A stretch of 64,000 nt of DNA, taken from Anadara kagoshimensis. Lineage: Eukaryota; Mollusca; Bivalvia; Arcoida; Arcidae. Position 1 is the first letter of the stretch, and every line of letters begins with the position of its first letter. Made by a program: the position numbers and the translations under genes. Location: the NCBI GenBank assembly GCA_021292105.1, contig CM037874.1, positions 7,242,678-7,306,677 of the forward strand, written 5' to 3'. The notes beneath the pieces were generated by a model. That model had not been told where the DNA came from and made no database searches. It saw only the letters and a program-made list of their open reading frames with translations. Shown in pieces: positions 21,764 to 56,088 of the stretch.

Positions 21764-24089
21764 AAAAAATTATTTGAAAATCAAAATTAATGAGTATCGT
21801 AATGAAAAATTTTTTACAAAAAGAGAACAAGAATAAAACTCATATTAACCAGTTTCCTATGTATTTATAATATAACAATTTGTACAACATAGCATTAATT
21901 ACATACAATTAAGTAAAGCATTCAGTAGAACATTATGTATATACACACCGTTTGTACAGAGGTTATGACCAAAATATACATCTTTTTCACATGTGTAATA
22001 GGAGTGACAACCTAAACTTTTATCAGCATACCGCCCGTCTGCTACACCGACACAGTTTTTAACCAATCCACAAGGTGGCGCAACATTCTTTGGACTAAAA
22101 CAAAAGTACAGAAAGTCAATGTACTTAACAATAATTACAGACGTCAAATACACATAAAACACGTCATTAAAGGTTTCAGAAACCCCACGTATATTTAACT
22201 ATTTTCTCGTTACTTCTATGACCGTCAAAAATTTGCAAAATCCAAAAGCAATGTGTTTGTTCTAACTGATTCTTATTTTTCGTAGTTCTATTTATTGCCA
22301 AACACGAAGGATTATGTTTTTTCTTTCGTTTACAAAAGACCATATACCAATTTATTCACTCTATTACTGAATCTATACGTCTTGGTTACTTACTGACCAG
22401 ACGTTCTATAGGCCATCTTGGTAACCTACACGTCACATGCTCTTGTGTTATTGTTGCATACGTTGTCATGGTTACTTACACGTCACATGTTCTTGTGTTA
22501 TTGATGCATACGTTGTCATGGTTACTTACATGTCACATGTTCTTGTGTTATTGATGCATACGCTGTTTTGGTTACTTACTCGTCGCATGTTCTTGTGTAT
22601 TTGTTATATACGTAGTCTTGGTTACTTACTCGTCACGCGTTCTTGTGTACATTGGTGTATTCTACGTAGTCTTGGTTGCTTACTCGTCACACGTTCTTGT
22701 GTTATTGTTGTATACGTAGTCTTGGATACTTATTCGTCACACGTTCTTGTGTACATTGGTGTATTATACGTAGTCTTGGATACTTACTCGTCACACGTTC
22801 TTGTGTTATTGTTGTATACGTTGTCTTGGTTACTTACTCGTCACACGTTCTTGTGTACATTGGTGTATTATACGTAGTCTTGGATACTTATTCGTCACAC
22901 GTTCTTGTGTACATTGGTGTATTATACGTAGTCTTGGATACTTATTCGTCACACGTTCTTGTGTACATTGGTGTATTATACGTAGTCTTGGTTGCTTACT
23001 CGTCACACGTTTTTGTGTTATTGTTGTATACGTTGTCTTGGATACTTACTCGTCACACGTTCTTGTGTTATTGTTGTATACGTTGTCTTGGTTACTTACT
23101 CGTCACACGTTCTTGTGTAATTGGTGTATTATATGTATCCATGTATCGGACATGGATTACTATGTTTGTTTTTGATACGTAGTCTTGGTTACTAACTCGT
23201 CACATGTTATTGTGTTATTGTTGTATACGTTGTCTTGGTTACTAACTCGTCACATGTTCTTGTGTTATTGTTGTATACGTTGTCTTGGTTACTTACTCGT
23301 CACACGTTCTTGTGTAATTGGTGTATTATATGTATCCATGTATCGGACATGGATTACTATGTTTGTTTTTGATACGTAGTCTTGGTTACTAACTCGTCAC
23401 ATGTTATTGTGTTATTGTTGTATACGTTGTCTTGGTTACTTACTCGTCACACGTTCTTGTGTTATTGTTGTATACGAAGTCTTGATCACAATTGTGTAGT
23501 GACGGTGTCCCTCCAGCACATGTTAGGTATGAGCGACAGCTTATTTCGTAATTGCCATCAGATTTACCGGTACACACAATGCCATTAGCTAAAAAATCGG
23601 AAATGTGTTTTTATAGAATACAATAGTATTTTGTTTCAAAATTCTGCGCATCCAAGTAGTTGGACAGTTTATTTATAATATGACCATATAGGGACACGAA
23701 ATTATGATATATCATGATCGAGCGTTGTTACTACATGTAACACGTGGTGCAATAGTTTGAAGTTTCGCTTTAGCGATGTTGGTTTCTTGAATTATATAAA
23801 GCTCAAAATGAACAAAACTTTGTAGTTTTGGTATTTTCTATTTGCAGCCTTGAAACACATGAAAAAAATTATGTTATCGATAGAAATGGTTCTTGAAGTA
23901 CCACAATCATGATACGCAACCCGGTGCAATTAAAAGTTAGTTGCGAGGGAGTGAAGATAAGTGAATTAAAACCCTCAAATACGTTAGATAAATTAAAAAA
24001 ACATAATAAATAAATAAATAAATAAAATATTGCTTACTATTGTATGGTAGAAAACAGAGAACAGCTAGAAGACAAATATAGCGGTACAT
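20848..24089 (-). CDS. Small secreted protein with two chitin-binding (ChtBD2) domains, gene II
   Basis: Four exons with canonical sites and matching phases: 24038-24089, 23444-23588, 21949-22094, 20848-20927, giving 140 residues. Exon 1 is a signal peptide (MYRYICLLAVLCFLPYN). Exon 2 holds ChtBD2 domain 1 with the core DGNYEISCRSYLTC; it has five of the usual six cysteines, the first being absent. Exon 3 and the start of exon 4 make domain 2 (DGRYADKSLGCHSYYTC ... GLVFDEVLQTCNWP) with all six. The tail is PPCGTKTT. ChtBD2 (peritrophin-A) domains bind chitin outside cells, in peritrophic matrix, cuticle or shell. An AATAAA signal (complement of 20813-20818) lies about 30 bp past the stop. Intron 2 contains the minisatellite 22385-23485, which is made from the end of exon 2. 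The paralogue at 36879-40088 has the same structure. Confidence 0.88.
21125..21470 (+). mobile_element. Dispersed hairpin element, copy 3
   Basis: It contains atttatccatgtccgaatca, ccacgtgaacttccacc, ggttgctccagaagggtaag, tagctagctacaccctcc and aaaggaacgcgattctag, in the family order, upstream of exon 4 of the chitin-binding gene (in intron 3). An AT tract follows. Confidence 0.75.
21715..21761. repeat. (TG)n microsatellite
   Basis: About 23 TG dinucleotides, in intron 3 of the chitin-binding gene. Confidence 0.95.
22385..23485. repeat. Minisatellite derived from a coding exon end and its splice donor
   Basis: About 20 tandem units of 50-54 bp. Read on the minus strand each unit is tacgtatacaacaataacac, aagaacgtgtgacga, gtaagtaaccaagac, which is the last 35 or so coding bases of exon 2 of the chitin-binding gene plus its GTAAGT donor and the first intron bases. 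The first unit on the minus strand is the real exon end (donor at 23443). Roughly half the units keep an intact GAGTAAGT donor; others read GAATAAGT. Two units contain an extra insert (23136-23180 and 23329-23375) with cggacatggattactatg, a fragment of the dispersed hairpin element. Frames of 64-168 codons on the plus strand are artefacts of the repeat. Confidence 0.93.
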
Positions 24090-34439: not shown

Positions 34440-35345
34440 ATTTATGTGCAGTGCTTTGTTTCGCAGGTTCGAACCCTTCATTGCAGTGTTTTTATACGTA
34501 GGCTCGAACCCCTCATTGCAGTGCTTTGATTTGCAGATTCGGCCCCTTCATTGCAGCGCTTTTATTCGGAGGCTCGAGTCCTTCAGTGCAGTGCTGCTTT
34601 GATTTGCAGGTTCAAGTCCTTCAGTGTAGTGTTTTTATTTGTAGGTTCGACCCACTCATTACAGTGCTTTGATTCGTAGGTTCGACCCACTCATTGCAGT
34701 GTTTTATTCGTAGGTTCGACACACTCATTGCGGTGCTTTGATTCGCAGGTTCGACCCACTCATTGCAGTGCCTTGATTCGCAGGTTCCACCCACTCATTG
34801 CAGTGCTTTGATTCGCAGGTTCGACCCACTCATTGCAGTGCTTTGATTCGCAGGTTCGAACCCCTCATTGCAGTGCTTTGATTCGCAGGTTCGACCCACT
34901 CATTGCAGTGCTTTGATTCGCAGGTTCGACCCACTCATTGCAGTGCTTTGATTCGCAGGTTCGACCCACTCATTGCAGTGCTTTAATGCGCAGGTTCAAG
35001 TCCTTCAGTGCAGTGCTTTGATTCGCAGGTTCAAGTCCTTCAGTGCAGTGCTTTGATTCGCAGGTTCGACCCACTCATTGCAGTGCTTTGATTCGCAGGT
35101 TCGACCCACTCATTGCAGTGCTTTGATTCGCAGGTTGCAGTGCTTTGATTCGCAGGTTCAAACCCCTCATTGCAGTGCTTTGATTCGCAGGTTCGACCCA
35201 CTCATTGCAGTGCTTTGATTCGCAGGTTCGACCCACTCATTGCAGTGCTTTAATTCGCAGGTTCGACCCCCTAATTGCAGTGCTTTGATTCGCAGATTCG
35301 AGTCTTTGATTCGCAGATTCGAGTCTTTGATTCGCAAGGTTGTGT
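34440..35345. repeat. Minisatellite, 35-bp unit with a B-box-like word
   Basis: About 25 units of cagtgctttgattcgcag followed by gttcgacccactcattg. Most units contain GGTTCGACCC or GGTTCGAACCC, close to the pol III B box GGTTCGANTCC. Units at the left edge (34440-34720) are more diverged than the centre, as expected if the array grows internally. The short frames on both strands across it are not genes. Confidence 0.93.
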
Positions 35346-35349
35346 CTTT

Positions 35350-35990
35350 GAGTGGACACTGCATGTATTAGCCATATACCAAGTGCCCAGTTGAAAATAG
35401 TTGTGAATACACAGTCGCACAGGCACCATAAAAAGCAATTCCAATTTTAGGTTTTTCGTTACGTAATGTACTTGGCAATGCCCAATGTAATTCAGAACAT
35501 TTCATATCCACCTAACGGAATACAAAATGAATCCAGATTGAGATAATTAATCATAAAACTGGATACAATAAACATAATGGTTAAGTTATTTTTGTAAACC
35601 TCTTACCATCTAATTTCTTCAAAAATATCGGGCTTTAAATATGCACACGATAAAAACAGTTTACAGTGGTGGCAAAAACTTTGCATTTTAGTAAAGAAAA
35701 CCCGTTCCAAATATATTTTAGATTCTTTCATTTTAACTCTAATGTGACTTAGCCGCCGAACGTGACGACTTGTAGATCACATTATCTCAACGCCTGGGCT
35801 CGAACCCCACTCTAGTAGATCCTAATGAGTGAAAGTTATTTTTGTTCGCTAGTCGAAGGTAGGTGATCTCCGGATATTTACCTCCACAATCTATGCTCTG
35901 TAACGTTATTCCACTTACTAGTAATCCGATGGCATGAAACAAACGCGCCTTTTCAATTCTTATTTTTGTGATTCGCAAGTTGTATTTATT
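35350..35990. other. Intergenic, with a tRNA-like remnant
   Basis: On the minus strand around 35750-35825 there is a good B-box match (gggttcgagccc) with weak sequence upstream, probably a SINE head or tRNA pseudogene. Nothing else is seen. Confidence 0.4.
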
Positions 35991-36878: not shown

Positions 36879-39800
36879 TTATTTGCCGAATACACTGAAT
36901 GTTCCACATGGTGGTTTTACCAGAAATGGATAGTTACAGACCTGAGCTCTCTCATCAAACACCAGACCTGAAAGTAAACAGTAGGGTGTTTAAGTAATAT
37001 AGATGCTAACCTGCTGCTTTGTTTGATTATGAATACAATGTTTAACTGCGTACCAAACAGTATAATAATAAAGGCTCATTGTGAAGCAAAAAGTAAAAAA
37101 AGGTTAACCCTTGTACCTTAAATATCACCAGAACCGACACACACAACCTTATGTATCGGGAAATAATTCTAGGTTCTGAAAAATGCTCGCGTTATCAAGA
37201 AAGCTACCATATATATTTTTCTTATTTTCAAGAAGATATCCATCTATATTTTCAAACTTGGTAATATTCAGTGAACATGTGCGTTTTTTAACAGGCTTCT
37301 TATGTTATATTTTCATCATTTATCTGCTTAGTTTTAGGCGATGTTATGTCAGTGTCGGAATGTGGTTTGCAAGGATTTGACGTGACCGCAATATAAGCAC
37401 ATTTAGTAAAGCAAATGATCAGTGGGCGAGCACCTTGCAGTTTGCTTGTGTATTTCACTAATAGGGAAACAACCTTTATTTGGTACATGTAGTAATTTTA
37501 GGCAATAGAATTGCTGACAATATTTATCCGCGACATATATTGGAATGTCGGGCTAAGAGAATGACTTGGCTGCCTGGTTGAGGGGTAGGACTTGGGTATA
37601 CCTTGGTTGCCTGGTTGAGGGGTATGGAGGGTATAACATAGGTTCTTCTGTATTTAACAGGGAATATAAAAATGAAAGGAACAAAATATCAATGTTTCGT
37701 AGTTACCTTTATTGCAGAAATAATGTCCATAAAAGTTCTTGTTGTAACACCTGTAGTAGGATTGACAGCCATTATTAATGTCAGCATAACGACCGTCTGG
37801 TGTTGACGTACAATCTTTTATATCATTGCACGGATAACTGGCATCGTAATAACTACAATCAAATGTATTGAAATTCATCGTTAATTACTTTGAATATGTC
37901 CAAAATTGCAAAGTTCAGAATACTGTGAAATCATCAATTTTCGTGGTTCTAATAAAAATATCATTTCGTGGGGGTTGGGGTGAATTCGTTGTTATGGGCG
38001 TAGCTATGACCGTTTTCCAGAAACATCTTCGTGTGTCTCGTAACTTCCTATTCTTTTATAATTAGTTCTATAACATACTGTATCGAATGGATTTACCTTT
38101 TCTTAGATAAACCACTTAGTTTCTAGAATTTGTCACTTAAATATTTTTCTTCAAAACGTTCCACACAACTGGTAAACAGAAAGTATAGACCACGTGATAC
38201 TTGGACTCCATTGTCGAGGTGGAACTAGTCTTAAGCTGATTAAAAACATACAATGTAAAATATAGAATAAAAACCCAAAGTTACTGTCAAATCATAATTT
38301 CAAATGTACGTTTATACTTAACGTGTGCAATGATTAATTAAACTATTTTTCACAGATTATTCATGGTTTTCACACTTGGTTTTCCCTTAAAAAAAGCATA
38401 ATTGTCTCGTGATGACGTATATAGAGGATCTTTAAGAAATACCTTCCACATCTTCCCGTTGTATTGACAAACGTTCCTCCCGCTGGACAGTGGACCAGTG
38501 TCGGTTTACTGGAGTTGCAGACGACATAGGACTGACAACTTAGTTCATAGATTCCATCGTCTCGGTTTGTACAATCAAAGGTAGCACAGGAGGCTGAACA
38601 GGAGGTAAGTAAAATGTACAAATAATCATACATAAGTTTGTTTAATTTTGTTCAATATATAATATAAAACAGGAAAGTTACTAGTAATCTTATTGACCAA
38701 ACAGCTGTATACTAGAGAAATGAGTGCCTCGGTATGAAGGAAATAATTTTATCGAAAACAAACATACCAATCCATGTACAATTCATAATGCAAAAGTAAA
38801 ATATAAACGCATCAATCAATGTTTAAATCATAAACCCGAAGCAAAGTAAAAACAAACATACCAATTGATGTCCAAATCAGAATCCGTAAGTAAAAGACAA
38901 ACATACAAATCCATGTCCAAATCATAATCACAAAGTAAAGTAAAAAACAAACATACAAATCCATGTCCAAATCATAATCACAAAGTAAAGTAAGAACATA
39001 CATACAAAATACATGTCCAAATCAGAATCCGTAAGTAAAGTAAGAACATACATACAAAATACATGTCCAAATCAGAATCCGTAAGTAAAGTAAGAACATA
39101 CATACAAAATACATGTCCAAAAAGATCACATGTCCACAAAATCAAAAACATATATACTTATCCATGTCCAACATTATTCCAAAGCAAAGTAAAAACATAC
39201 ATATCAATTAATACTCAAATCACACCCAAAGCAAGGTAAAAACAAACATACCAATCCATGTTCAAATCACAATCCCAAAGTCAAAAACAGACATACCAAT
39301 CCATGTCCGAATCACAATGCCAACGCAAAGTAAAAACAAACATACAAAGCCACGGTCAAATCACAATGCTAAAGCAAAGTAAACAGATATATACCAATCC
39401 ATGTTTAAATCACAATGCAAAAGCAAAGTAAAACGTATGAAAATAAACAATTAATTCAAACACGCGAACTTCCATCAGGTAAGTGAGGGTTATCAATAAG
39501 ACGTAAAACATACACCCATCAGATATTACCATTCAAATGTTCAGTAGAGATCTGTCGAACGTTTATACAAAGTTAACGGACAACCGGACCAGCAGCTTAT
39601 CTTGGCCTCTCGTTAGTTAGCTTTATCGACAGCTATTCGACAGCTACCATCTATTCTTCGGCAGCTTTCAGGTCACTTGCTATACGAACACATCGACTTG
39701 GCAGTCAAACTGACACCCTTTTGTTAGCACAGTGTTACACTTTCGAGGGCTCTAAACTGTAATTCGTTTTATTGCAAAAAACTTGGTAATTTTTACCTAA

Positions 39801-50819: not shown

Positions 50820-53800
50820 TTACTTACCAATTCTCCTGCAACATCGGAAACTCCAATCTCTGTCCTTCCTGGCTGAAACCCAAACGCCTTTTATGTCGTT
50901 TAAATAGTGATCTTTCTCGCAAACGTGACTGAAGGCGCCATTACCATAATAGTCTGGCAGAAAAAGTAAAAACATATGGCGTTTGAAAGAGTTCAGGCTA
51001 TAGCAACATCACTGATCGATACATCTTCAATCGAACTTTGTTAACTTTTCTATATGGTTTGGATGATGTACGGTCAAAAGGTCAATGTTTATTTTTTAGT
51101 TGAACTCAAACCCGTTTCTTAACATATCTACATTCAAATTTCTATTTTTTATCTGGAATCATCTATCTCTTTGGAGGTGTTTACTCTTCCTGTGTATCGG
51201 TCTCATTTCTTTGATGGAGGTAACGTGTTTAACTAATTCGCCAGTGTCAAAGTTTTTACTTTGCTTTGGGATCGCGATTTAGACATGGATTTAAAAAAAC
51301 AAAAACACAAGACTTTCTAAAATAATCTTTTGTCTAAGTATTATGTCACTAAGCAATCTCGGTCGGTATGTTAATGTTTTACTTTTGGGATTATTTTGAA
51401 CATGGATCGGTGTGTTTATGTTTTACTTTTATGATTTAAACGTGCATGGATCGGTGTGTTTGTGTTTTACTTTTATGATTTAAACATGGATCGGTGTGTT
51501 TGTGTTTTACTTTTGGGATTTAATTTAAACATGGATCGGTACGTTGTGTTTTACTTTTATGATTTAAACATGGATCGGTGTGTGTGTTTTACTTTTATGA
51601 TTTAAACATGGATCGGTGTATTTGTGTTTTACTTTTATGATTTAAACATGGATCGGTGTGTTTGTGTTTTACTTTTGGGATTTAATTTAAACATGGATCG
51701 GTATGTTTGTGTTTTACTTTCATGATTTAAACATGGATCGGTGTGTTTGTGTTTTACTTTTGCGATTTAATTTAAACATGGATCGGTATGTTTGAGTTTT
51801 ACTTTTGGGATTTAATTTAAACATGGATCGGTGTGTTTGTGTTTTACTTTTATGATTTAAACATGGATCGGTGTGTTTTGTGTTTTACTTTTATGATTTA
51901 AACATGGATCGTTGTGTTTGTGTTTTACTTTTATGATTTAAACATGGATCGGTGTGTTTGTGTTTTACTTTTGGGATTTAATTTAAACATGGATCGGTGT
52001 GTTTGTGTTTTACTTTTATGATTTAAACATGGATCGGTGTGTTTGTGTTTTACTTTTGGGATTTAATTTAAACATGGATCGGTGTGTTTGTGTTTTACTT
52101 TTATGATTTAAACATGGATAGTTGTGTTTGTGTTTTACTTTTGGGATTTAATTTAAACATGGATCGGTATGTTTGAGTTTTACTCTTGGGATTTAATTTA
52201 AACATGGATCGGTGTGTTTGTGTTTTACTTTTTGGATTATTTTGAACATGGATCGTTGTGTTTGAGTTTTAGTTTTGGGATTTAATTTAAACATTGATCG
52301 GTGTGTTTGTGTTTTACTTTAATGATTGAAACATGGATTGGTGTGTTTGTGTTTTACTTTTGGGATTTAAACATGGATCGGTGTGTTTGTGTTTTACTTT
52401 TATGATTTAAACATGGATCGTTGTGTTTGTGTTTTACTTTTGGGATTTAATTTAAGTATTATGTCACTTTGCAATCTCGGTCGGTATGTTAATGTTTTAC
52501 TTTTGGGATTATTTTTAACATGGATCGGTGTGTTTATGTTTTACTTTTATGACTTAACCATGGTTCGTTGTGTTTGTGTTTTACTTTTATGAGTTAAACA
52601 TGGATCGGTGTGTTTGTGTTTTACTTTTGGGATTTTATTTAAACATGGATCGTGTGTTTTGTTTTTACTTTTATGATTTAAACATGGATCGGTGTGTTTG
52701 TGTTTTACTTTTATGATTTAAACATGGATCGGTGTGTTTGTGTTTTACTTTTGGGATTTAACTTAAACATGGATAGGTGTGTTTGTGTTTTACTTTTATG
52801 ATTTAAACATGGATCGGTGTGTTTGTGTTTACTTTTGGGATTTAACTTAAACATGGATAGGTGTGTTTGTGTTTTACTTTTATGATTTAAACATGGATCG
52901 TTGTGTTTGTGTTTTACTTTTATGATTTAAACATGGATCGGTGTGTTTGTGGTTTACTTTTGGGATTTATTTTAAAATGGATCGGTGTGTTTGTGTTTTA
53001 CTTTTATGATTTAAACATGGATCGGTGTGTTTGTGTTTTACTTTTGGGATTTAATTTAAACATGGATAGGTGTGTTTGTGTTTTACTTTTATGATTTAAA
53101 CATGGATCGGTGTGTTTGTGTTTTAATTTTGGGATTTAATTTAAACATGGATCGGTGTGTTTGTGTTTTACTTTTATGACTTAAACGTGGATCGGTGTGT
53201 TTGTGTTTTACTTTTGGGATTTAATTTAAACATGGATCGGTGTGTTTGTGTTTTACTTTTATGACTTAAACATGGATCGGTGTGTTTGTGTTTTACTTTT
53301 GGGATTTAATTTAAACATGGATAGGTGTGTTTGTGTTTTACTTTTATGACTTAAACGTGGATCGGTGTGTTTGTGTTTTACTTTTGGGATTTAATTTAAA
53401 CATGGATCGGTGTGTTTGTGTTTTACTTTTATGACTTAAACATGGATCGGTGTGTTTGTGTTTTACTTTTGGGATTTAATTTAAACATGGATAGGTGTGT
53501 TTGTGTTTTACTTTTGGGATTATGATTTGAACATGGATCGTTGTGTTTGTGTTTATCTTTTGGGATTTAATTTAAACATGGATAGGTGTGTTTTGTTTTA
53601 CTTTTGGGATTTAAACATGGATCGGTGTGTTTGTGTTTTACTTTTGGTATTTAATTTAAACATGGATCGGTGTGTTTGTGTTTTACTTTTGGGATTTAAT
53701 TTTAACATGGATCGGTGTGTTTGTGTTTTACTTTTGGGATTTAATTTAAACATGGATAGGTGTGTTTGTGTTTTACTTTTGGGATTTAATTTAAACATGG

Positions 53801-56088
53801 ATCGGTGTGTTTGTGTTTTACTTTGGGATTTAATTTTAACATGGATCGGTGTGTTTGTCTTTTACTTTTATGATTTAAACATGGATCGGTGTGTTTGTCT
53901 TTTACTTTTATGATTTAAACATGGATCGGCGTGTTTGTGTTTTACTCTGGAATTATAATTTGAACATGGATCGTTGTGTTTGTGTTTATCTTTTGGGATT
54001 TAATTTAAACATGGATCGGTGTGTTTGTGTTTTACTTTTATGATTTTAACATGGATCGGTGTGTTTGTGTTTTACTTTTGGAATTATGATTTGATCATGG
54101 ATCGGTGTGTTTGTGTTTTACTTTTTGGATTATTTTGAACATGGATCGTTGTGTTTGAGTTTTACTTTTGGGATTTAATTTGAACATGGATCGGTATGTT
54201 TGTGATTTACTTTCGAAATTGCCATTTGAACATGGATCGGTATGTGCGTGGTTGAGATATATATAATACTGTAAGTTGTGATATCAAAGAATGCATTTAT
54301 TTTTTTTCCATTTGTTTTTGATATATTTGTACAAAACTAATTTGTCATGTGAGGTATTTATGTTTTACATATACTGACTTACTTTTCCAAGGTGTACAAA
54401 AGGCACTCAGTATACCAGCAGTGGTGCGGCATCTAAGATCAAATCGTCTATCCCGGTAAAAGGATGAATATCTAGACCTCATTCTGTATAAGTTTTGTGT
54501 CGCGGGACAGTAAACGGCAAGGTTCTCTTCGTAGTTATTGTCATACCAAGCATGGACTTCAAAGTCGCACAGACAGGCAAAGATGACAAGGATCAAGGCA
54601 ACTCGGAAGTGCTTCTATAAAAAAACAAGCAAATTTCAAAAAATGTTCTATGTAAACGATTTTATGCTTACCCTTCCGGAACCACCGGTCTCACTTCCCT
54701 GGTGGAAGTTCACGTGTTTAACCTAATTTACTATTTTAATATAGTTTGTTAGTTTCAAAACTAAATTTTGGATTTGGATTTAGACATGGATTAGAATGTT
54801 TATTTTTTATTTAATTGATCAAATATTGAAAATAAACATTAAAAACATCAGAAAATTCCAAGTTCAGAGTGAGTACCACCAGTGAAAGTACCACCCAGTC
54901 ATCATGGTTTGCCCATCATACACATATCCGTATAACAAACAGTAGGCAAAACGCACAGCAGTAGTACACTAACGTTAATACTGCGCTAGACTGCATATGC
55001 ACAATCCGCTAAAGCAAAGCGTATAGGGCCGAGTGAAATGTAGAACCTGATAGGACGAGTAATTTTACACAGGATGAGGAGGCAGTTTTAAATGCTTTAA
55101 ACTGCATTAAACAATATAGATGGAATATTTGTAATATAAAAAAGTTCTGAAAAATGTTTTAAATATCGATCAGAACCATACCACTGTTCGTTTACTCTGC
55201 TGGAGAGAAAGGAATAACGCTAATATCTCAAAGATTTAACTGACACAGTTAAAAATCAAATAATCATTTACTTACATGAGCGGAGTCGTTGCTAATAATC
55301 CTTATTTCGATCTAATCCGTGCATTATAACTCCTTTAATGCACCAAAACGTGTATTGGATGGGTGTTTACAATGGTAAAAATTTTGACAAAATGGCGGAG
55401 TCTTTCGTGTGACGTAATGATGACGGAAGAATTTGTTATTTACGTAGGTTCGCGAGGGGTACAATGAAGGGTAGTTCAAAGGTCGGGTTGAGTTTAAAAG
55501 TTTAAATTTACGTTAATTTTTCAAAAGATTAAAAATGCAGAAAGGTAGTTCACTTTATTACTTTTTTAACCAATTTTGGTCATCTCAGTTACGCCAAAAT
55601 CAATCCGTTCTGGAGCTGCACTAACCTACGTAAATAGTCGACTCTTTCGTCATGACTACGTAACATAAAGAACCCCGCCATTTCGTAAAAAAAGATTACC
55701 ATTGTAAACACCCACCCAGATTATATTTTGTCGCATAAAATGATATATTAAGAAAGGGTGAAACCGAAACAAAAAATTTTAAGTTACGACTCGGCTCATG
55801 TAAGTAAAGGAATTATTGATTTGTACCCATCGTATTGAAAATTTATAGAGTATTTTGCGATCTTGCTTTCTCCGAAATAGGCTAAATAAACAGTAGACAT
55901 CTTACTATTTCTGGTTCAATTATTAATTAGTCATTGTTAAAACGACTGACAAGACTGAAATCCTTCAGTAGCAGTGCGCAAACACGAACAAATGAAATAT
56001 ACAACAACAGTTTGTTATACTACTGTTCAATAATTCCAGCAATTAAAATATAGCATGATTTACTTACCAAACTTGTGCTACCTCCCAT
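47261..56088 (-). CDS. Dermatopontin-like secreted matrix protein
   Basis: Five coding exons: 56068-56088, 54383-54614, 50828-50953, 48046-48175, 47261-47318, phases 0, 1, 1, 2, all GT/AG, giving 188 residues. Seven residues (MGGSTSL) from exon 1 join a signal-anchor-like stretch (VALILVIFACLCDFEVHA) in exon 2. The mature part has the dermatopontin repeats: CPATQNLYRMRSRYSSFYRD then RRFDLRC; FSHVCEKDHYLNDIKGVWVS then RKDRDWSFRCC; NDYRQSFDYIAPEDYVITGV then RDRCWRFTIC. Each ends in the D-R-x-[W/F]-x-F-x-C signature. Dermatopontins are disulphide-rich extracellular matrix proteins and are known shell-matrix components in molluscs. Intron 2 holds a 2.9-kb minisatellite. A second first exon lies at 59037-59057, and the terminal exon of a paralogue at 63278-63341. 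Confidence 0.9.
48278..48337. repeat. (AT)n microsatellite
   Basis: About 60 bp of nearly pure TA in intron 3 of the dermatopontin gene. Confidence 0.95.
48540..48690 (-). mobile_element. Dispersed hairpin element, copy 10
   Basis: The plus strand reads tagctaaacagcaggtgctt, actcttccaaggcaccaggc, ttcgtgtgtttaacttaat and tgctttgagattgtgattta, the complement of the family core. In intron 3 of the dermatopontin gene. Confidence 0.72.
48700..50770. other. Dermatopontin intron 3, mostly featureless
   Basis: AT-rich. A hairpin with gcatgtgctacttttgaatg and complement lies at 50112-50163, matching that at 40941-40998. Around 49780-49940 the word atccatgga recurs irregularly. No exon was found. Confidence 0.4.
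50777..50818. repeat. (TG)n microsatellite beside exon 3
   Basis: About 21 TG units ending 10 bp past the donor of dermatopontin exon 3. On the transcript this is a (CA)n tract starting about 10 nt inside the intron; CA repeats there can bind hnRNP L, a known way to tune donor use. Confidence 0.85.
51090..54245 (-). repeat. Dispersed hairpin element with a giant expanded end; 40/45-bp minisatellite
   Basis: About 65-70 tandem units fill 51350-54245. Two main unit types alternate: catggatcggtgtgtttgtg, ttttacttttatgatttaaa (40 bp), and the same start followed by ttttacttttgggatttaat, ttaaa (45 bp). Read on the minus strand this is the acaaacataccaatccatg end of the dispersed element. A truncated element core (about 51170-51290) adjoins the array in the same orientation. 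It lies in intron 2 of the dermatopontin gene. Frames of 62-138 codons on both strands are artefacts. Confidence 0.92.
54655..54815 (-). mobile_element. Dispersed hairpin element, copy 12
   Basis: The plus strand reads atgcttacccttccggaacc, actggtctcacttccctgg-like and gtggaagttcacgtgtttaa, then tttagacatggattagaatg: the complement of the family. In intron 1 of the dermatopontin gene. Confidence 0.72.
55355..55720. mobile_element. MITE with about 100-bp TIRs
   Basis: The left end tggatgggtgtttacaatgg and the right end (minus strand) tgggtgggtgtttacaatgg begin inverted arms that continue through aaatggcgg(a/g)(g/t)tctt and atttacgtaggtt. The centre has no coding frame. In intron 1 of the dermatopontin gene. 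Confidence 0.8.

Follow-up and report, generated by a model that had tools for sequence, protein, structure and literature searches.

A minisatellite built on an exon end and its 5' splice site in a predicted CBM14 gene of the bivalve Anadara kagoshimensis

A predicted chitin-binding protein gene of Anadara kagoshimensis carries in its second intron a minisatellite whose units each combine a copy of the end of exon 2, a copy of its 5' splice site and the first bases of the intron. We consider it probable that this is a VNTR-type minisatellite seeded by duplication of the exon 2 end together with its 5' splice site, that the first donor wins over the decoy donors behind it, and that the array is nearly neutral. 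The gene lies in the stretch of DNA analyzed here, called the window: 64 kb of contig C18 in an assembly of 1.115 Gb and 36 contigs. Positions are those of the window unless a contig or locus is named, and in splice junctions a slash marks the exon-intron boundary.

Results and Discussion

The gene and its array

The gene is predicted to run on the minus strand from 24089 to 20848 and to have four exons (Table 1), whose boundaries are sequence-based predictions; in silico splicing of these exons gives a frame of 140 amino acids (aa) with no internal stop. The product matches Pfam CBM_14 in two stretches (E 1.5e-20), and its PF01607 score of 73.5 bits against a curated cut-off of 22.1 identifies it as a CBM14 (peritrophin-A) chitin-binding protein. 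CBM14 domains have six cysteines each, and the predicted exons divide those of domain 1 between them. Intron 2 is 1349 nt long on the predicted exon coordinates, and exon 2 ends in ...TGTGACGA/GTAAGTAAC. The gene looks to be under constraint, given a dN of 0.44 against a nearly saturated dS of 2.08 in the comparison with its nearest paralogue.

The first-pass annotation of the window had described roughly 20 repeat units that copy the exon 2 end, the donor and the intron start, with the genuine exon end as the first unit. Cutting the array into units bears out both points. There are 20 units, arranged head-to-tail and without gaps from 23484 to 22385; twelve of them are 50 nt long, five 54, two 97 and one 36. 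The corresponding TRF call covers 22416-23484 (period 50, 21.1 copies, score 1123). Unit 1 consists of the last 41 bases of predicted exon 2, all coding, plus nine intron bases, and 19 more copies come after it. Its donor is the predicted exon 2 donor, i.e. the exon's own donor heads the array. Past the array the intron continues with CAAGACGTATA, which is similar to the start of another unit, and then the pattern is lost.

Both 97-nt units contain the same piece of a dispersed repeat. A dispersed 49-50-bp repeat was considered as the source of the whole array and rejected because it contributes just this piece. Elsewhere in the window, the arrays at 38755-39433 and 51363-54245 have 40-50-bp units and are mutually similar by eye; a piece related to them is found inside the two 97-nt units and at many sites in the genome. 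A further minisatellite, at 34447-35351, has a 35-bp unit containing GGTTCGACCC, which resembles the B box of tRNA-type promoters. Since TRF returns 61 rows, partly overlapping, for the 64-kb window, arrays would be expected to land on exon ends now and then.

Table 1. Coordinates of the gene, the array and related exon-end copies
Feature	Position	Strand	Remarks
Exon 1 (predicted)	24038..24089	-	signal-peptide-like start, donor GTAAGC; from the 140-aa spliced frame
Exon 2 (predicted), 145 nt	23444..23588	-	CBM14 domain 1, first five cysteines
Exon 2 5' splice site, GTAAGT	23438..23443	-	junction common to an array-free paralogue
Minisatellite, 20 units	22385..23484	-	TRF and cutting into units; exon-end copy, donor and intron start in each
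Dispersed-repeat piece in 97-nt unit 3	23343..23381	-	query 320-358 matches elsewhere in the genome
Same dispersed-repeat piece in 97-nt unit 6	23146..23184	-	query 517-555, genome search
Exon 3 (predicted)	21949..22094	-	sixth cysteine of domain 1 and most of domain 2; from the spliced frame
Exon 4 (predicted), stop codon	20848..20927	-	from the 140-aa spliced frame
Decayed exon 2 pieces, intron 2 of paralogue	L012 1722-1811, 2265-2294; L011 1723-1802, 2261-2290		
137-bp duplication on C13	L052 4065-4340; also L037 1629-1904		

Origin of the array

Does the array derive from the exon end, or was a minisatellite that was already present captured as the end of exon 2? The exon end is nearly identical to several units, as capture would have it, but we consider capture extremely unlikely on the following evidence. 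A tblastn search of the genome with exon 2 gave 33 hits at E values up to 10. The nearest relatives beyond the locus are at C18:54.446 and 54.875 Mb and have 59% identity over exon 2 residues 6-49; one of them (L011) shares 56 of 97 residues across exons 2 and 3, and its exons are predicted to be as long as those of the array gene, 145 and 146 nt. Exon 2 of this diverged paralogue likewise ends in TGTGACGAGTAAGT, and both 54-Mb paralogues have the junction TGTGACGA/GTAAGT and no tandem array. Because the same junction word stands in a paralogue free of the array, it is on this comparison the original exon end, from which the array was derived. Moreover, the exon has a TTC codon whose T is found in none of the other full units, 32 in the two copies of the locus together (see below); its place is taken by A in most and by G in A17, B11 and B13. 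Since no other full unit has this T, array sequence has not replaced that of the exon at this position. Lastly, among 40 scored genome matches to the array (from 113 candidates), the only array-long ones are the locus and its second copy, and the other 38 span just the embedded dispersed piece.

The first-pass annotation had let its exon-derived reading depend on whether exon 2 of related species ends in this word. Among paralogues of this genome, which served as the relatives compared here, the closest does. It had also pointed to a paralogous exon within the window, at 38443-38593, as the one to align. By eye, this exon and its pair end in AAG/GTATTT; it has no array, the array at 38755-39433 on its 5' side being a different, dispersed repeat, and it is the closest, 54-Mb paralogue that shares the junction. 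Three more distant pairs have, again by eye, predicted donors at the end of the hit that read TATGA/GTAAGT, AAAGA/GTAAGT and TGTAAA/GTAAGT.

A second copy of the locus

The window aligns with C18:6.36-6.43 Mb in 20 blocks (those above 400 bp, chosen greedily) of 82-99.6% identity separated by large gaps. Fifteen of the 20 are collinear with the window; of the others, four (47.2-51.3 kb) break the order and one (26.0-26.4 kb) is inverted. No block covers window regions 1-3.3 kb and 26.4-34.4 kb. Positions 3326-64000 are mostly present in this second copy, some 0.88 Mb away, with large insertions.

Within this one assembly the array has 20 units in the window copy and 16 in the second copy. In one alignment of the units there are 14 pairs, nine identical and five with one to three differences, which leaves without a partner six units in the window copy (2-4, 9, 11 and 12) and two in the second (12 and 13). 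Between the copies, 2 of 423 coding sites are different; divergence is 2.5-3.4% in introns 1 and 3 and in the remainder of intron 2, and 1.3% in the 311 upstream bases.

The second copy may be the other haplotype, possibly unpurged, or a segmental duplicate. On the side of alleles, 24 of the 33 exon 2 hits form 12 same-chromosome pairs by eye; ten of the 12 gave best alignments of 87-94%, and one, on C13, just 83-91%. Among matches to the C-type-lectin family PF00059, for which 150 out of 866 candidates received a score, similar pairs can be seen by eye, uncounted. What speaks against a doubled assembly is the RNA-polymerase-subunit family, with six matches and no such pairs. A separate observation concerns an RNA-polymerase beta-like match (L057, contig C22:13117-14226) that has a 758-aa open frame, with two TGA within the match; contig C22 is possibly bacterial or organellar in origin.

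Decoy donors

Of the 20 units, 17 keep a GT (16 of the 19 distal ones), 11 keep GTAAGT (10 of the distal ones) and eight keep GACGA/GTAAGT, so that the first-pass estimate of about half the units with an intact donor after the same coding bases was a fair one. Three units have lost the GT, and the donors of others are weakened. The minus strand of the 64-kb window has 31 GTAAGT in all, 11 of them within 22385-23588.

Predicted pairing with U1 was expressed as the duplex energy with the U1 5' end. This is not a splice-site score, and the three units lacking GT still have -4.4 kcal/mol. On this measure the true exon 2 donor has -7.2 kcal/mol, the exon 1 donor -4.5 and the exon 3 donor -6.8. The window copy has 10 decoys at -7.1 kcal/mol or lower among its 19 distal units and the second copy 10 among 15, and the strongest, CGG/GTAAGTAT in unit 7 of the second copy, reaches -13.3 kcal/mol.

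Are the decoys under selection? We see no clear sign of it, as conservation is not clearly higher in the donor hexamer than elsewhere in the unit. In the window copy (with the truncated last unit excluded from the count) agreement with unit 1 is 0.917 for the donor hexamer and 0.902 over the exonic part of 41 bases. Counting the donor, 25 of the 45 six-base stretches agree as well as the hexamer does. When both copies, which share ancestry, are pooled, the values are 0.927 and 0.893, and 14 of 45 stretches (donor included) are as good, so that conservation of the donor looks slightly higher. Pseudo-exons or new introns within the array are unlikely, there being no usable acceptor among its 68 AG sites; the best of these has 8/16 pyrimidines, against 12-13/16 at the three genuine acceptors.

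The outcome of decoy use was predicted by joining the four exons in silico, with exon 2 prolonged to each unit in turn. Of the 20 positions, only unit 1 yields the 140-aa protein. From each of the 19 distal positions, 16 with a GT, comes one identical 66-aa product ending in NNTRTCDE, because GAG TAA stands in frame right behind the true exon end. Without exon 3, this product has neither domain 2 nor the sixth cysteine of domain 1. The claim that use of a distal donor would add units and often bring in a stop was therefore correct as to the stop and too cautious as to its frequency. Position 2 places the stop 46 bases ahead of the junction, and positions 3-20 place it 143-1046 bases ahead, so that most decoy-spliced transcripts would be expected to undergo nonsense-mediated decay (NMD). 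Protein diversity through decoys is ruled out, the truncated product being the same at every distal position; by the same token the array, as predicted from these frames, may lower output and cannot diversify the protein.

Neutral slippage or a functional array?

In the reading that we favor, an early slip between short direct repeats would have copied some 50 bp of exon end plus donor. Candidate repeats are CAAGAC followed by CGTATA in the exon, which recur, slightly different, at the distal edge. Later slippage, unequal exchange or conversion would have enlarged and reshuffled the array. The first donor would be chosen because it closes an ordinary exon of 145 nt, which any decoy would make 50 to 1050 nt longer. 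Were a decoy used, the transcript would run into the TAA, encode the truncated product and be subject to NMD. The net effect would be near neutrality, with perhaps a small loss of mRNA. The first-pass annotation had offered two outcomes, neutral slippage with the first donor winning or a source of splice variation. The former fits better because there is no clear excess of donor conservation, whole units turn over between the two copies and a single truncated product results; the latter survives as noise or dampened expression and fails as protein diversity. A dampening side effect on expression is possible. The well-pairing decoys (10/19, 10/15 and the one at -13.3) mean that neutrality must invoke exon definition or decay. 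The slightly higher donor agreement in the pooled copies also counts against it, although the copies share ancestry. Also counting against neutrality, by analogy, is that the human relatives of this architecture, as they are described, do affect splicing or expression (PMC5954066, PMC5188458).

Might the array then be a functional damper, in which competing donors divert transcripts into truncated, NMD-removed forms or into exon skipping, to an extent set by array length? About half of the decoys equal the true donor in predicted U1 pairing and one, in the second copy, is much stronger, and accounts of the two human cases link longer arrays to reduced ABCA7 expression with more exon 19 skipping (PMC5954066) and to lower CBS activity (PMC5188458, a review). 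That said, the donors of the window copy lack a clear excess of conservation, three units have no GT at all and others are weakened, and unit retention in ABCA7 is reported not to depend on length (PMC5954066); we regard a damper as unlikely. That the array is a selected, length-variable brake, with each unit a U1 site competing for one poison frame and individuals differing, seems to us improbable. If it were true, the strength of the brake would be set by the number of units and by very strong decoys such as CGG/GTAAGTAT, and brakes of this kind would have arisen repeatedly in the CBM14 family, three apparent cases being known here, through exon ends duplicated into the intron that follows them. 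Telescripting, i.e. U1 sites that shield the intron from premature cleavage and polyadenylation, or that keep U1 near the exon, is highly unlikely: an intron of 1349 nt is short and would have little need of protection, and the donors, although GT persists in 16 and GTAAGT in 10 of the 19 distal units, are not clearly conserved in excess. Some ten decoys that match the true donor and one that is much stronger provide a natural test of the spliceosome's fidelity to the first donor.

Exon-end copies at other CBM14 loci

Copies of a locus's own exon were sought at 29 of 30 loci from the exon 2 search (L032, inside the window array, was excluded); the loci are not independent, owing to pairs and overlaps, and the control, 60 mononucleotide shuffles, keeps base content and not dinucleotide content. 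Both copies of the array locus score above the shuffles. Downstream scores above the shuffles were found at L009-L012 and L037. L030 and L038 exceeded them as well; these two overlap and count as one locus, the copies there apparently being adjacent coding domains. An upstream score of 24 against 23 shuffled at L036 was taken as chance, and L028 and L034 tied with the shuffles.

Both copies of the 54-Mb paralogue have two decayed exon 2 pieces inside intron 2, above shuffles. The longer one (exon bases 56-142 in L012) scores 70 in L012 and 50 in L011, where 300 mononucleotide shuffles reached 29 at most; the second, of 30 bases, scores 50 and 40 against 29. At C13:13.327 Mb a 137-bp tandem duplication (2.0 copies) spans a CBM14 coding end and an ACAA/GTAAGT donor, which we infer to be a genuine exon end; a relative 43 kb off, in inverted orientation, has the CBM14 stretch once. 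The three apparent exon-end duplications (the array, the 54-Mb paralogue and C13) differ in extent and look like independent events. They suggest that genomes rich in minisatellites may have such arrays across splice junctions more often than one would gather from the human cases, which is a lead and no measured rate.

Comparison with known systems

The primary report of the 31-bp VNTR in human CBS is said to be that of Lievers in 2001. This repeat is written c.1444_1467+7(16_21) (PMC2630376), a name that we read as 24 coding plus seven intronic bases in 16-21 copies, and is placed at the exon 13/intron 13 boundary (PMC5188458, PMC1395315). According to a review, more units go with lower enzyme activity, and the repeat is there termed non-coding, contrary to its coding numbering (PMC5188458). 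Like the CBS repeat as described, the Anadara array tandemly repeats an exon end, its donor and the intron start (PMC2630376) and differs in unit number, here between the two copies of the locus, its unit comprising a coding exon end, the 5' splice site and the first intron bases. The gene and the sequence are unrelated, however, and the CBS units are all 31 bp whereas those here are of 50, 54 or 97 nt with an embedded piece of a dispersed repeat. Furthermore, an effect on activity is reported for CBS, whereas the present array is known from sequence alone.

The 25-bp VNTR in intron 18 of human ABCA7 is described as beginning at the exon 18 donor, with the intron's first base; retention of a single unit causes a frameshift, a premature stop and NMD, and a longer VNTR is associated with lower expression and more skipping of exon 19, although unit retention itself is independent of VNTR length (PMC5954066). 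There, as here, the array starts at the exon's own donor (in our case the predicted exon 2 donor) and has a potential donor in each unit; the ABCA7 VNTR starts with the intron, however, whereas 41 of 50 bases here are copied coding exon (PMC5954066). In intron gain by tandem duplication, splice signals are copied too, but an acceptor is needed; here donors alone are multiplied, with no acceptor and no intron. AGGT, on which that model is built, occurs in one of the 20 units (unit 19, by eye), and a usable acceptor is lacking. Among invertebrates, intronic minisatellites are described for an earthworm metallothionein, with copied donors unmentioned in the text available. A literature search of partial coverage, which does not establish absence, found no invertebrate array of exon end plus donor. 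By its structure, then, the Anadara array is a further case of the architecture described in the two human genes CBS and ABCA7, to which it adds an example from a non-human animal genome.
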